NCBI RefSeq assembly: GCF_002843425.1
Contig: NZ_NKXO01000019.1
Location: 1-64,000, forward strand
DNA length: 64,000 nucleotides
Reading direction: 5' to 3'
Source of the DNA: Raineya orbicola
GTDB lineage: Bacteria; Bacteroidota; Bacteroidia; Cytophagales; Thermonemataceae
Part shown: piece by piece, positions 40,357 through 52,627 of the stretch
Numbering within the stretch: the first letter of the stretch is position 1
Layout of the letters: every line of letters begins with the position of its first letter
Made by a program: the position numbers and the translations under genes
Notes under the pieces: model-generated
Databases searched by the model: none
Seen by the model: the letters and a program-made list of their open reading frames with translations, nothing else
Told to the model about the DNA's origin: nothing

Positions 40357-40371
40357 AATTTTGTATTTTTG
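40341..40371 (+). promoter_or_regulatory. Exact promoter of the CcrM-like methyltransferase gene, inside the ccmB 3' end
   Basis: TTTG (40341-40344), 19-nt spacer, TATTTTTG (40364-40371). The match to the consensus is exact and predicts a transcription start about 10 nt before the ATG at 40387, so the gene has its own transcript. Confidence 0.75.
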
Positions 40372-40386
40372 ATAAAATTTAGTGTA

Positions 40387-41511
40387 ATGGAAAAAATTGG
40401 AGATTTTCAAATTAACTCTATTGTTCAAGGAGATTGTGTTGAGTTGCTAAAAAAATTACCCAATAATTCGGTAGATTTAATCTTTGCTGACCCGCCTTAC
40501 AATTTACAGCTCAATGGAGAGTTATTTCGTCCTAACCAAACGAAGGTTGATGCCGTAAATGATGGGTGGGATAAATTTGATTCTTTTGAAAGCTATGATA
40601 AATTCTGTTTGCAATGGCTTTCAGAGTGTAGAAGGGTTCTGAAAAGTACAGGAAGTATTTGGGTAATTGGGTCTTACCATAATATTTTCCGAATAGGTAA
40701 AATTATGCAAGATTTGGGTTTCTGGATTTTGAATGATATTATTTGGATAAAAACTAATCCTATGCCCAACTTCAAAGGGACTCGTTTCAACAATGCTCAC
40801 GAAACGCTTATTTGGGCAAGCAAATCGGAAAAATCATCTTATACTTTCCATTATAAATCTATGAAAACTTTTAACGATGATTTGCAAATGCGAAGTGATT
40901 GGTATATTCCGATTTGTCAGGGGGAGGAGAGAATAAAAGTAAATGGAAAAAAGGCTCATTCAACGCAAAAACCCGAAGAATTACTTTTTCGGATTATTCT
41001 TTCAACTTCCAACATCAATGACCTTATTCTTGACCCTTTTTCAGGAAGTGGCACAACTGCCGCAGTAGCCAAGCGTTTGAAAAGAAAATTTTTAGGTTTT
41101 GAAAGAGAACTTTTCTACGTTCAGGTTGCTAATGAAAGGTTAAACAAAATTATTCCTTTGGCAGAACCTGTTTTAGAGTATAAGATTGAAAGACGAAAAC
41201 CTAAAGTCCCTTTCGGGAGCCTTATTGAAAAAGGCTTTGTAGAAATTGGAGAGGTGCTTTACTCTAAAAATGGATTGCATCAGGCTGTTGTTTTGGCTGA
41301 TGGCTCTTTACAATATGGTGATTTAGTGGCTTCTATTCATAAGGTAAGTGCTTTTATTTTAGGTAAAGAAAATTACAATGGTTGGTCTTTTTGGTATGTA
41401 AAGAGAAATGGTATTTTACAAAGTATTGACGATTTGAGAAACCTTTATAGCGAAAAATATTTCGGAACTCCTTTCAAAATTCACTCTAAGACGATTTCTA
41501 AAACTGCCTAG
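40387..41511 (+). CDS. CcrM/HinfI-like adenine-N6 DNA methyltransferase with C-terminal RAMA-like domain
   Basis: This beta-class amino-methyltransferase has catalytic motif IV DPPYNLQLNGELFRP (35-49) before the SAM-binding motif I DPFSGSGTTAAVAKRL (about 214). Long tracts match Caulobacter CcrM, which methylates GANTC: SIWVIGSYHNIFRIG, NPMPNFKGTRFNNAHETLIWA, MRSDWYIPICQGEERIK and THSTQKPEELL-like AHSTQKPEELLFRIILST. The C-terminal 100 residues (LIEKGFVEIGEVLYSKNG...ADGSLQYGDLVASIHKVSAFI) correspond to the RAMA domain of CcrM. At 374 residues it is slightly longer than CcrM. No restriction endonuclease gene is adjacent, so it looks like an orphan enzyme. GANTC specificity is inferred from conservation. 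Confidence 0.9.
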   Translation: MEKIGDFQINSIVQGDCVELLKKLPNNSVDLIFADPPYNLQLNGELFRPNQTKVDAVNDGWDKFDSFESYDKFCLQWLSECRRVLKSTGSIWVIGSYHNIFRIGKIMQDLGFWILNDIIWIKTNPMPNFKGTRFNNAHETLIWASKSEKSSYTFHYKSMKTFNDDLQMRSDWYIPICQGEERIKVNGKKAHSTQKPEELLFRIILSTSNINDLILDPFSGSGTTAAVAKRLKRKFLGFERELFYVQVANERLNKIIPLAEPVLEYKIERRKPKVPFGSLIEKGFVEIGEVLYSKNGLHQAVVLADGSLQYGDLVASIHKVSAFILGKENYNGWSFWYVKRNGILQSIDDLRNLYSEKYFGTPFKIHSKTISKTA

Positions 41512-43048: not shown

Positions 43049-43085
43049 AAACCTTGCAGGTATAAATCTTGCAAGGTTTTTTATT
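43049..43085 (+). terminator. terminator after the Spy-like gene
   Basis: Stem AAACCTTGCA (43049-43058) and TGCAAGGTTT (43070-43079), 10 bp perfect, with an 11-nt loop and a TTTTTTATT tail. Confidence 0.85.
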
Positions 43086-43112
43086 AGTTTAAGCCATCAC
43101 CTGAATATTATT

Positions 43113-43552
43113 CGTGCATTTGTGGCAAATAATTTCAGCCACGAATAACACAAATGAGACACGAATGATTTATTTGTGCATTCGTGGCAAAAATTCTTGC
43201 ATTTGTGGCAAATAATTTCAGCCACGAATAACACGAATGAGACACGAATGATTTATTTGTGCATTCGTGGCAAAAATTCTTGCATTTGTGGCAAATAATT
43301 TCAGCCACGAATAACACGAATGAGACACGAATGATTTATTTGTGCATTCGTGGCAAAAATTCTTGCATTTGTGGCAAATAATTTCAGCCACGAATAACAC
43401 GAATGAGACACGAATGATTTATTTGTGCATTCGTGGCAAAAATTCTTGCATTTGTGGCAAATAATTTCAGCCACGAATAACACGAATGAGACACGAATTT
43501 TATTTATATTCGTGCATTCGTGGCAAACAATTCGTGCATTTGTGGCAAATCA
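43113..43552. repeat. 83-bp tandem repeat array built from CACGAAT heptamers
   Basis: Repeat units start at about 43116, 43199, 43282, 43365 and 43448 (exact 83-nt period); a divergent partial copy begins near 43536. The inner copies appear identical. The first carries CACAAAT instead of CACGAAT, and the last is diverged, the usual edge pattern of a tandem array. Each unit holds three direct CACGAAT heptamers (spaced 9 and 11 nt) and three in reverse as ATTTGTG/ATTCGTG. These give hairpins such as ACGAATG/CATTCGT and GCCACGAAT/ATTCGTGGC. The array fills the gap between the Spy-like terminator and the restriction enzyme gene. Minus-strand ORFs inside it are translations of the repeat, not genes. 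Confidence 0.95.
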
Positions 43553-43567
43553 AAACTTTTTGAACCT

Positions 43568-46500
43568 ATGTTGTTTCAGACGCAAACTAGCTCGCTTTTT
43601 CAGCAAGCCTATGACCGCAAGCAATGGAAACAATTCCTTGCCGATACTTTCCCAAAATTTGATTCATTCTCTGAACCTATTCCAATAAGCATAGATACTC
43701 ATTTTGCCCAACAAGCCTTTCTGTTGGGTAATATCGCCCTCCAAGAAAACGGCATTAAACGTACTTTGGCAGTTTATGAAGTAAAACTCACTACACACAT
43801 ACAAATAGAACGCAACCGCGTAGGACTGCGAAACCTACTTCGCAAATACTGGAAAAATATTGACGGGGCATTCATTGTGTTTTATCAATCTCAAAAGCCC
43901 AAGTGGCGGTTTATGTACGTTTCCGAACTGACAGGCTTCGATGCCGAAGGCAATTTCCAAACTATACAAACCGAACCCAAACGCTATACCTACCTTTTGG
44001 GCGAAAACGAAAATGTAAGAACCGCTACCGAACGCTTCGAACTACTTGCCCAAAAAGGAAGCAAAATCACCCTCAACGACATCAAAGAAGCCTTTTCTGT
44101 TGAAAAAGTTACCAAAGAATTCTACTCCGATATTGCCCAATGGTACGAATGGGCTTTGCCACTCGTGCAGTTCCCCGAAGACGCCGAACAACAAGAAAAC
44201 GGACGAAATATCGCCCTCATACGACTGCTCACACGCCTGTTTTTCATCTGGTTTATGAAAGAAAAAAAACTTATTCCCCCCGACTTGTTTGATGAGAACT
44301 GGCTCAAAAACATACTTATAGAGTTTTACCCCCAAGATGCAAAAAACGGCAATTACTACAAAGCCATTTTGCAAAATCTCTTTTTTGCTACGCTCAACAC
44401 GCCACAAGCACAACGAAAGTTTCGCCGAGAGCATAGCTTTCAGGGAAAAAACAACGACTATATGAACCATAGCTACTACCGATACCTTCATCTATTTAAA
44501 AAACCCGACCAAAGTCTGCTTATTTTTCAGAGCATTCCCTTTCTGAACGGAGGTTTGTTTGAATGCCTTGATTTCCGAAAAGATGACCCCCTCAATCTCA
44601 CAGGCAAAGAAATTCGCATAGACGGCTACTCCGATATACCCGCTAAACAAGCTTTTGTTCCCAATATTTTGTTCTTTGAACCCCAAAAAGGCATTTTATC
44701 TATTTTTCGGAAATACCACTTCACCATAGAAGAAAATACCCCCTTCGACCAACAAGTCTCCCTTGACCCCGAAATGCTCGGCAAAGTTTTTGAAAACCTA
44801 CTTGCCACCTACAACCCCGAAACCCGCGAAACCGCACGCAAAGCCACAGGCAGTTTTTACACCCCTCGCGAGATTGTCTATTTTATGGTCAAGGCTTCGC
44901 TGAAAGAATACTTCAAAACACAACTTGCTGAAAAGATTACGAGTATAGAAACTCGTTTAGAGCAACTTTTTTCCTATGCCGATACCTCTAATCCTTTCAG
45001 CTCCGAAGAAACCCAACTACTTATTAACGCCCTGCACGAAGTCAAAATCCTGGACCCTGCCGTGGGCTCAGGGGCGTTTCCGATGGAAGCCCTTAACCAA
45101 ATGGTGCATCTGCTTAGCAAACTTGACCCTAAAAATGAAAAATGGAAAAATGCCCAAATTCAAGCGGTACAACGCTCTGTATCTGACCCTTCGCTCAAAC
45201 AAAAAACCATAGAACACATAGAAAACATCTTTCAGCACAATGAACTCGGATACGGACGAAAACTCTTTCTCATTCAAAATTGCCTCTATGGCGTGGATAT
45301 TCAACCCATTGCCGTGCATATTGCTAAATTACGTTTTTTTCTTTCGCTCCTCGTAGATGAAAAAATTGATGACGCTTTGCCCAATCAGGGCATTGAACCC
45401 TTGCCCAACCTTGAAACCAAACTCATCGCCGCCAATACACTTATCAGTTTGCCCCGACATCAGCATTTACAAACTCTCCCCCTTGAAGCATTAGAAAAAC
45501 AATTGTTTGAACTCCGAAAGAATTACTTCGAAACCAACGACCAAACACAAAAAGAGCAACTCAAAAAACAAGACCAACTAATACGGCTACAAATACAAAA
45601 CTTATTGAAAAACGGCGGTTTCCCCTCCGAATTTGCCGATGCCATTACCGAAGCCGATATCTACGACACCCAAAAAAGCCATAATTGGTTCGATGCCGAG
45701 TGGATGTTTGGCATCAAAGACGGCTTTGATATGGTAATTGGCAACCCTCCGTATATCTCTACAAAAGGCGTCAGTACGGAGGCTAAAAAAGAGTTAGAAA
45801 AGCAATACGGCTTCGCTGATGATACTTACAATCATTTCTATTTCAAAGGAATTGCATTACTCAAACCAAAAGGCATATTAGCTTACATCTCCTCTAAAAC
45901 CTTTTGGACTATCCAAACCAAAAAGAATTTACGAGAATTATTCTTGCAAAATACCATACTGCAACTTTTTGATACCGCAAATCCCTTCGAATCGGCTATG
46001 GTAGATACCTGCGTGGCAATACTTCAAAAACAAAGCCCTGATGATACGCATACCATTATCTTCCTTGATGGTAAAAAAGATTTGGCTAATCCTGATACTT
46101 ACACCGTTTCGCAGCAGGTTTATGCCACTGCACCCAATCAAGTTTTCTTTTTGCCCTCGCCTTACAATATGAAAATTTATGAACGATTAGGCAAAATAGT
46201 CAATCATTTACTCAACCAATGGTGGGATAAAATCTCTACCAGCAAAAACATAGAAAAACACAAAAAAGAGCTTGAAACATACCGAAAACAACTCCAACCC
46301 GGGGATATAACCCTTTTGGGACTTATCACCGAAGGCGGACAGGGACTTGCAACCGCCAACAACGGCAAATATGTCGGCATATTAGAAGGCACAAAATGGG
46401 CTGAACTTGCCCGCAAACAACGCCCCGAAAAACTCCTATTAGCAACTCAATTTTGCAAACAACAAGGCATTCGCAATAAGCAAGATGCCCAAGCATTCTT

Positions 46501-47221
46501 AGAGAAACTACCCGAACAACAAATCCGAAAACTTTTTGATGACCTCAAAGAACAATACGGACGTGATGTCTTTGGGCAAGGCTGGTTGTACAGAATTGTT
46601 AGCCCCAATGAAATTGCTGATGTAAATAAACTCTCCGATGAGGAAAAACTCAACGGCATACAAGGTACTAAAACCTTTGTGCCTTATGACAAAGGCGATA
46701 AAGACGGCAACCGCTGGTATGCTCCAACTCCTTATTACATTGATTGGTGCAAAGAAAATGTAAAGTTTTTACAAACTGACCCAAAAGCACGATGGCAAGG
46801 TTATCAATTCTACTTCCGTGAAGGGTTTTGTTGGAGCGATATACACACAGTAAATATTAAGTCTCGTATAAAAACAAATGGCGTTCATGATGTTAAAAGT
46901 ATGAGTTTGTTTTCATTGAGTATTGAAAAATGCCCAGAGTTTTATTTGGTATGCTTATTAAATTCAACTTTTATTAGCGAATATGTTTTTTATTACATAA
47001 AAAATACACAAACATTTCAAATCAACGATGCAAGATTAGTTCCTATCATCATACCCACTACCACCCAACTTCAATCATTTGAGCAACTATTTAACCGAGC
47101 GTATGAAATTCAGCGGGGTAAATTTGCGGGTAGCCTAAGCGAGCGTGAAGCAGAAAAGGAATTAGAGGTGCTACAAAAAGAATTGGATAAAAGGGTAGAG
47201 GAGATGTATTTGCACTCATAA
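43568..47221 (+). CDS. Type IIG restriction-modification enzyme (Eco57I-like methylase with endonuclease and specificity regions)
   Basis: This is a single-chain enzyme of about 1217 residues from ATG 43568 (MLFQTQTSSLFQQAYDRKQW). The in-frame ATG at 43520 is inside the repeat array and is less likely. The N-terminal region has LAVYEVKLTTHIQIERNRVGLRNLLR, where E-x-K after a hydrophobic strand fits a PD-(D/E)XK nuclease core (about 65-95). The gamma-class methylase follows: TGSFYTPREIVYFMV, SAM motif ILDPAVGSGAFPMEAL (about 494) and the catalytic IGNPPYIS (about 723). The last 450 residues are a TaqI-like target-recognition domain. No separate R, M or S genes are adjacent. The C-rich codon choice (ccc, cgc, acc) differs from its neighbours and suggests transfer. 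Recognition site unknown. Confidence 0.9.
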   Translation: MLFQTQTSSLFQQAYDRKQWKQFLADTFPKFDSFSEPIPISIDTHFAQQAFLLGNIALQENGIKRTLAVYEVKLTTHIQIERNRVGLRNLLRKYWKNIDGAFIVFYQSQKPKWRFMYVSELTGFDAEGNFQTIQTEPKRYTYLLGENENVRTATERFELLAQKGSKITLNDIKEAFSVEKVTKEFYSDIAQWYEWALPLVQFPEDAEQQENGRNIALIRLLTRLFFIWFMKEKKLIPPDLFDENWLKNILIEFYPQDAKNGNYYKAILQNLFFATLNTPQAQRKFRREHSFQGKNNDYMNHSYYRYLHLFKKPDQSLLIFQSIPFLNGGLFECLDFRKDDPLNLTGKEIRIDGYSDIPAKQAFVPNILFFEPQKGILSIFRKYHFTIEENTPFDQQVSLDPEMLGKVFENLLATYNPETRETARKATGSFYTPREIVYFMVKASLKEYFKTQLAEKITSIETRLEQLFSYADTSNPFSSEETQLLINALHEVKILDPAVGSGAFPMEALNQMVHLLSKLDPKNEKWKNAQIQAVQRSVSDPSLKQKTIEHIENIFQHNELGYGRKLFLIQNCLYGVDIQPIAVHIAKLRFFLSLLVDEKIDDALPNQGIEPLPNLETKLIAANTLISLPRHQHLQTLPLEALEKQLFELRKNYFETNDQTQKEQLKKQDQLIRLQIQNLLKNGGFPSEFADAITEADIYDTQKSHNWFDAEWMFGIKDGFDMVIGNPPYISTKGVSTEAKKELEKQYGFADDTYNHFYFKGIALLKPKGILAYISSKTFWTIQTKKNLRELFLQNTILQLFDTANPFESAMVDTCVAILQKQSPDDTHTIIFLDGKKDLANPDTYTVSQQVYATAPNQVFFLPSPYNMKIYERLGKIVNHLLNQWWDKISTSKNIEKHKKELETYRKQLQPGDITLLGLITEGGQGLATANNGKYVGILEGTKWAELARKQRPEKLLLATQFCKQQGIRNKQDAQAFLEKLPEQQIRKLFDDLKEQYGRDVFGQGWLYRIVSPNEIADVNKLSDEEKLNGIQGTKTFVPYDKGDKDGNRWYAPTPYYIDWCKENVKFLQTDPKARWQGYQFYFREGFCWSDIHTVNIKSRIKTNGVHDVKSMSLFSLSIEKCPEFYLVCLLNSTFISEYVFYYIKNTQTFQINDARLVPIIIPTTTQLQSFEQLFNRAYEIQRGKFAGSLSEREAEKELEVLQKELDKRVEEMYLHS

Positions 47222-51566: not shown

Positions 51567-51586
51567 GATAAAATATAAGTTTGGCT

Positions 51587-52627
51587 ATGCAAATTCTCAA
51601 TCCGTTGTATGATGTTGTGTTCAAGTATTTAATGGAGGACAACAAAGTCGCCAAACTTTTGCTTTCGGCTCTTATCGGGCAAGAAATTTTGGAACTTATC
51701 TTTTTGCCACAAGAGTTTCTTGCCGATTTTGACTTTGATACCGCCAAGAAACGTCAAGAAGAAAATCCAACCATACAATTTTCATCAGGGCTTACCGTAT
51801 ATCGCATAGATTTTTCTGCCAAAATTCGCACTGAAACAGGAGAGGAAAAAATCATCATTATTGAGGTACAAAAAAGCAAGCTCACCAGTGATATGATACG
51901 ATTTAGAACGTATTTGGGCAGTCAATATGCCAAAAAAGAGTATTTTTATTGGGTAACTTCCCGCAATACAGGCAGACGCTACAAGGCGGGTTTGCCTATT
52001 TATGCGATTTTCTTTTTGGGCTATGGATTGGAAGAATATGCAGGTGTGCCTGTCATAGAAATTGATAATTGCGTAAAAGATAAACGAAATGGCGAAATTA
52101 TTGGCGAAAAGGGGCATTTTATTCCCGCTTTGTTTCATAAAGGAATTGTTGTAAATATTCCATACTTAAAAGAACGCTATCAGAGTGATTTGGAAAAAAT
52201 TTTGAGTATTTTTGACCAAAACAACCGAAGCGAGGATTTTCATATCTTGAATGTAAAAGAAGAGGATTTTCCTGAAAAATATCGTCCTATTATACGAAGA
52301 CTGCAAGCGGCGGCACAAGAAAAAACCTTACGAAATAAAATGATAGCCGAAGACGATTATCTGACCGAAATGAATGAATATGAAGAAGAAATCAATGAGT
52401 TAGAGAAAAAATTGGTAAGTATTGAGGAGGAAAAGCAAAAATTACAAATAGAAAAAGAAGCTCAAAAAATCCTTGCCGAACAAGAACGCCAAAAAGCTGA
52501 GAAATTGGAACAAGAAAAAGTGCAAACAATTCGCCTGATGATAGAAATGGGTATCCCCTTGCAAACTATTCAAGAAAAACTCAATATCAATGAGGAATTT
52601 TTACGAAAAAATAACCTAATCCACTAA
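51587..52627 (+). CDS. Rpn/PD-(D/E)XK nuclease family protein with C-terminal coiled coil
   Basis: The start MQILNPLYDVVFKYLMEDNKVAKLLLSALIG is the classic N-terminus of the Rpn/YhgA-like PD-(D/E)XK family (annotated as putative transposase or recombination-promoting nuclease). The catalytic core is VYRIDFSAKIRTETGEEKIIIIEVQKSKL, giving D...E-x-Q-K. Residues about 255-315 are a long charged coiled coil (EEEINELEKKLVSIEEEKQ). The C-terminal segment IRLMIEMGIPLQTIQEKLNI resembles the small HTH-like tail of this family. There are no inverted repeats or IS neighbours, so it is a chromosomal singleton. Confidence 0.85.
   Translation: MQILNPLYDVVFKYLMEDNKVAKLLLSALIGQEILELIFLPQEFLADFDFDTAKKRQEENPTIQFSSGLTVYRIDFSAKIRTETGEEKIIIIEVQKSKLTSDMIRFRTYLGSQYAKKEYFYWVTSRNTGRRYKAGLPIYAIFFLGYGLEEYAGVPVIEIDNCVKDKRNGEIIGEKGHFIPALFHKGIVVNIPYLKERYQSDLEKILSIFDQNNRSEDFHILNVKEEDFPEKYRPIIRRLQAAAQEKTLRNKMIAEDDYLTEMNEYEEEINELEKKLVSIEEEKQKLQIEKEAQKILAEQERQKAEKLEQEKVQTIRLMIEMGIPLQTIQEKLNINEEFLRKNNLIH

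Follow-up and report, generated by a model that had tools for sequence, protein, structure and literature searches.

In the 64,000-nt stretch of Raineya orbicola DNA analysed here (the window; contig NZ_NKXO01000019.1, positions 1 to 64,000), the gene of a type IIG-like restriction-modification enzyme is preceded by an 83-bp tandem array of CACGAAT heptamers in both orientations. The question raised by this locus is whether the array is a control region purpose-built for the enzyme or a repeat that multiplied at the site, and the latter is most likely. We put at about 75% the probability that a dispersed, REPIN-like palindromic repeat of intergenic regions forms an ordered tandem cluster here, on the left border of an insertion that is specific to the lineage and carries the IIG-like gene, and that the array is not a dedicated regulator.

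Anatomy of the array

When TRF was run on the window, the predicted array proved real and was delimited at 43110-43550 (strand not assigned), with a period of 83, 97% matches and 5.3 copies, a copy number that comes from a draft assembly of 104 contigs and may be collapsed or altered. Combined with a unit alignment, this gave the layout R'-(P-R')x5, in which five palindromes P are interleaved with six half-arms R'. The imperfect palindrome P reads GCCACGAAT-AA-CACGAAT-GAGA-CACGAAT...ATTTGTG-C-ATTCGTGGC, the half-arm R' reads ATTCKTGCATTTGTGGC, and the reverse heptamer forms are covered by ATTYGTG. One example of P, bounded by GCC...GGC and without assigned strand, lies at 43304-43354 and represents the element that is also found dispersed as single copies. 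In the R' register, units start at 43110, 43193, 43276, 43359, 43442, and 43530, with spacings of 83, 83, 83, 83, and 88, so that the exact 83-nt period claimed earlier holds for four of the five intervals and fails for the last. On the plus strand, units 2, 3, and 4 (43193-43275, 43276-43358, and 43359-43441; 83 bp each) are identical, the 83-bp unit 1 (43110-43192) differs from them at two positions, and unit 5 (43442-43529) is a divergent 88-mer followed by a terminal half-arm (43530-43550). This terminal half-arm and the one at 43110-43130 are direct repeats, both carrying the 21-nt ATTCGTGCATTTGTGGCAAAT, and the ATTCTTG variant is confined to the inner R' copies, all of which have it. The identity of the inner units and the restriction of this variant to them support the predicted recent expansion through recombination or slippage between direct repeats.

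Exact CACGAAT/ATTCGTG heptamers occur 29 times in the window, compared to 5.7 +/- 2.5 in shuffled sequences, and 22 of the 29 fall within the array; the expected total of about thirty, three in each direction per unit, is correct once ATTTGTG is counted. Hairpin folding, which had also been foreseen, was far beyond that of shuffled sequences (-165.7 vs -103 kcal/mol, z -11.4). It had further been supposed that the array fills the whole space from a terminator to the enzyme start. A terminator-like hairpin is present 3' of the Spy-like gene (43049-43079, plus strand), and congener G003 has an equivalent hairpin in the matching place, but 30 bp separate the hairpin from the array and the likely enzyme ATG at 43568 lies 17 nt past the array.

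Nothing in Rfam came near a family's gathering score with the array, no match was obtained in plasmid and phage records, and a sequence-based search of the open-access literature found no paper with the arm sequences. The 29-nt left arm was not found in viral contigs; a looser arm pattern gave 114 stretches in 2.9 million viral contigs, possibly with chance matches among them.

The enzyme gene and its insertion

The gene downstream of the array (43568-47221, plus strand, 1217 aa) lies between the Spy-like and CGS genes, and its product matched an Eco57I-type methylase (4e-32) and the PADLOC model REase_MTase_IIG (3e-65), from which we classify it as a type IIG-like enzyme with predicted cleavage activity. 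In the congeners G001 and G003, the Spy-like gene directly neighbours the CGS gene, indicating that the enzyme gene and the array form an insertion with the array as its left edge. The array was absent at all six homologous IIG genes inspected (five other genomes and a paralogue on contig C25 of this genome), and no CACGAAT was found in the loci fetched around the homologues in the five other genomes. Family arrays with other periods also exist elsewhere. The functional link to the enzyme considered in the original prediction was therefore not supported.

The C25 paralogue has its own upstream region in place of the array, and its leader is identical to that of the window gene from GGCAAATC onward. 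The junction is marked by the common 24-nt leader GGCAAATCAAAACTTTTTGAACCT (43544-43567, plus strand), which overlaps with the end of the array. Over the first ~450 nt, the two genes are 93-100% identical, then 70-94%, and the C-terminal part is at background. The closely matching 5' ends would be accounted for by a recent exchange between the genes that began at the edge of the array, and the ATTCTTGGC in the paralogue's leader, one mismatch from the arm end, suggests that an arm may formerly have been there too. The paralogue itself belongs to a defence-like cluster (L073, G000:C25:47000-53962), in which it follows a helicase-like gene and an AlbA/Schlafen-like ATP-binding gene, names that were given by sequence inspection alone.

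Copies elsewhere in the genome

BLAST and pattern searches of this genome (104 contigs, 3.07 Mb) revealed about nine further intergenic sites with either the palindrome or a solo arm. C1 and C27 each carry two sites with a palindrome bounded by GCC...GGC, and C13, C24, and C37 carry one; C8 and C21 have solo arms. The C24 palindrome is part of a second tandem cluster, 159 bp x3. Six of the eight single-copy sites examined lie between convergent genes, and the outer flanks of the single copies are T-rich (61% T). In most palindromes, the two heptamers are separated by 1 nt in one arm and by 2 nt in the other, which gives the palindrome a direction.

Among the copies, the heptamers are conserved and the 1-3 nt spacers vary. 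Of 18 copies with a variant second heptamer, none showed the matching change in the other arm, and the sequence thus seems more important than pairing at this position. The spacers paired in 20 of 42 cases, compared to 5.5 in shuffles, a figure inflated by shared ancestry. We looked at the TPI and RecF loci for an empty and filled pair of a single palindrome. The palindrome is missing there in the congeners, but either the spacer around it or the gene downstream is different as well, and no clean boundary was obtained because the intergenic regions of the congeners are too different. Of the features of a MITE, the single copies have inverted ends and, by eye, no consistent target-site duplication; the search for a parent IS covered Y1 elements.

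Distribution in other genomes

The double-heptamer pattern matched 25 times in this genome vs 0 in each of three congeners, and 29 and 15 times in two genomes from other families of the order. With a stricter pattern, 30 of 395 genomes of the phylum matched, most of them belonging to a single genus within the same class, with at most 98 matches per genome, and the backward pattern used as a control gave near 0 matches. In the named collection, Flavobacterium supplied most of the Bacteroidota matches. Since many genomes of this collection are MAGs and the pattern alone is expected to give several hundred chance matches by our estimate, only palindromes with both arms were to be counted. These span about seven phyla and were found in Flavobacterium, a Zetaproteobacterium, Anaerolineales, Bryobacterales, Chloracidobacterium, Nitrospinota, Nitrospiria, and Desulfuromonadales. 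Of the three roles offered at the outset, that of a dispersed repeat family is supported by copies within the genome, a patchy occurrence in relatives and members in several phyla; nothing positive was found for an iteron array or a structured leader RNA. From this distribution, we infer that single palindromes are mobile.

Clusters of the family in other genomes have periods of 35-140 bp. In G027 (L425, L426) and Herpetosiphon (L131, L175, L186, L187), CACGAAT arms are embedded in intergenic stretches where other heptamers are repeated in tandem (TTATTGA, AATTGAG, ATAACTT, CATCCCT, and GGCTATN), which points to a wider class of heptamer phrases. G009 (L422, L423) has near-identical palindromes, AAACCACGAATTACACGAATTACACAAATTAAATTAGTGTAATTCGTGTAATTCGTGGTTTC, of a sister family whose arms have a 9-nt period.

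Relation to known repeats and the transposase question

The closest known elements are REPINs, which share with the repeat studied here the extragenic inverted doublet of ~17-nt arms, the variable linker, the solo arms, and the ordered tandem clusters with one additional flanking arm (PMC3116915); such clusters comprise up to four REPINs plus one REP in P. fluorescens SBW25 (PMC3116915). The short arms form a hairpin, as in REP/REPIN elements. However, REP sequences bear GTAG / CGTC tags (PMC3733652, PMC2817692), and no such tag was found beside the arms, which read GCCACGAATNNCACGAAT and are not self-palindromic. Moreover, REPs are usually species-specific, whereas these heptamers recur in several phyla. 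We also searched this genome (G000, a 99.76% complete draft) with the PF01797 (Y1/RAYT) profile at E<=0.001 and obtained no match, with 5 of 14 controls positive. Y1 genes are present in 33 of the 39 genomes of relatives tested, and the flanks of 50 Y1 loci of relatives (30 + 20) contained isolated heptamers only and no repeat copy. A RAYT/IS200 element as the mobiliser was rejected on these two results. As both the tagged self-palindromic REP and a genomic RAYT are missing, we call the repeat REPIN-like and not a REPIN.

The array also resembles BIME-2 and other RAYT-associated BIMEs (PMC2817692) in having tandem modules of alternately oriented units, and its flanks are identical. It shares the layout of the basic BIME module, two direct units with one inverted between them (PMC2817692), but differs in the lack of a rayt gene, in sequence class and in its heptamer-based arms. 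In the Bacteroidota, a similar case is BrickBuilt, a MITE of Porphyromonas gingivalis (PMC4596501), which is likewise intergenic and carries a tandem array within a dispersed inverted-repeat element; it has an embedded minisatellite and ~20 copies per genome (PMC4596501). BrickBuilt differs from the array in its unit of 23 bp and in its terminal inverted repeats of IS5 type (PMC4596501). No sequence relation between the two was seen.

Cyanobacterial STRRs are dispersed heptanucleotide repeats. Heptamer elements of the sequences GGGACCG and MTYCTGA have been described in Geobacter metallireducens (PMC2700814). Like these, the present family is made of repeated heptamers, but STRRs and Geobacter elements are contiguous 7-nt tandems, whereas the array heptamers are spaced by 1-3 nt and placed in inverted arms.

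Alternative explanations

A cis-regulatory array, whose copy number would tune transcription or translation of the enzyme through cryptic promoters or a structured 5' leader, is unlikely, though several observations fit it. The array fills the space in which the paralogue has a promoter-like TAATTTTG at -66, no TAnnTTTG is present between 43024 and the enzyme ATG, and the folding of the array as RNA is very strong. Each inner junction contains TTTG-N21-TGCATTTG, one mismatch from the Bacteroidota promoter consensus, and promoter activity is known for the dispersed, minisatellite-bearing BrickBuilt of P. gingivalis (PMC4596501). The promoter-like match, however, is one event copied four times, at a level that the background of 0.72 per kb would permit. 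Nor does a device belonging to this enzyme agree with the missing array at every homologous enzyme gene or with the occurrence of these palindromes in intergenic regions unrelated to it, some of them flanked by convergent genes.

The strong hairpins, the 6/8 single copies between convergent genes and their T-rich outer flanks could also mean a series of terminators or insulators, active in both directions, that blocks read-through into the enzyme gene. We regard this as highly improbable: every GGC in the array is followed by AAA or AAAAA and never by T, which makes terminator function there unlikely, and an ordinary terminator is already present at 43049. The sequences that follow GGC in other genomes are rich in A (37 of 108 with >=6 A in 8 vs 3 with >=6 T), and the palindrome sites there are mostly codirectional, according to a crude orientation test with an in-house ORF caller. 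An iteron-like array recognised by a specific protein is likewise highly improbable. Conserved heptamers among variable spacers and the 0/18 matched variants agree with recognition of CACGAAT; the irregular spacing, the pairing of spacers beyond chance and the absence of an adjoining replication or regulator gene do not. We know of no dedicated CACGAAT binder.

Proposed origin of the array

The preferred reading, a repeat that multiplied at this site, would start from a palindrome between two 21-bp direct half-arms R'. One half-arm would have mutated to ATTCTTG, and slippage or unequal crossing-over between R' copies would then have generated 83-bp modules and propagated the mutated one. Amplification of a single mutated module is expected to leave ATTCGTGCATTTGTGGCAAAT in the end half-arms and ATTCTTG in the inner ones. 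The repeat may itself have been the junction at which the enzyme gene recombined, or may have been present there by chance. The array possibly regulates the enzyme, and any such effect, by a structured leader or an altered promoter, would be a by-product.

Palindromic repeats are usually credited to RAYT transposases and regarded as species-specific, but here the same arms cross phyla. The absence from congeners, together with no detectable Y1 transposase in the host, makes the spreading mechanism testable, and the array marks a recombination edge beside a restriction gene whose 5' end was seemingly exchanged with a paralogue. It is a rather doubtful but wider idea that heptamer-armed palindromes of Bacteroidota, Chloroflexota, Acidobacteriota, Nitrospinota, and others spread without RAYT-type transposases and that their tandem clusters act as recombination junctions exchanging defence genes.

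Two other genes of the window deserve mention. At 40369-41511, there is a CcrM-like orphan adenine methyltransferase with a RAMA domain, whose match to NCBIfam CcrM (2e-167) falls below the cut-off of that model. In G001, no such gene lies between asd and the membrane-protein gene, and in G003 the 6 kb that precede asd contain no homologue, which makes it a second lineage-specific methylase nearby. The 348-aa protein encoded at 51581-52627 has no Pfam or NCBIfam match and by inspection resembles Rpn/PD-(D/E)XK transposase-like nucleases, which are its candidate identity.
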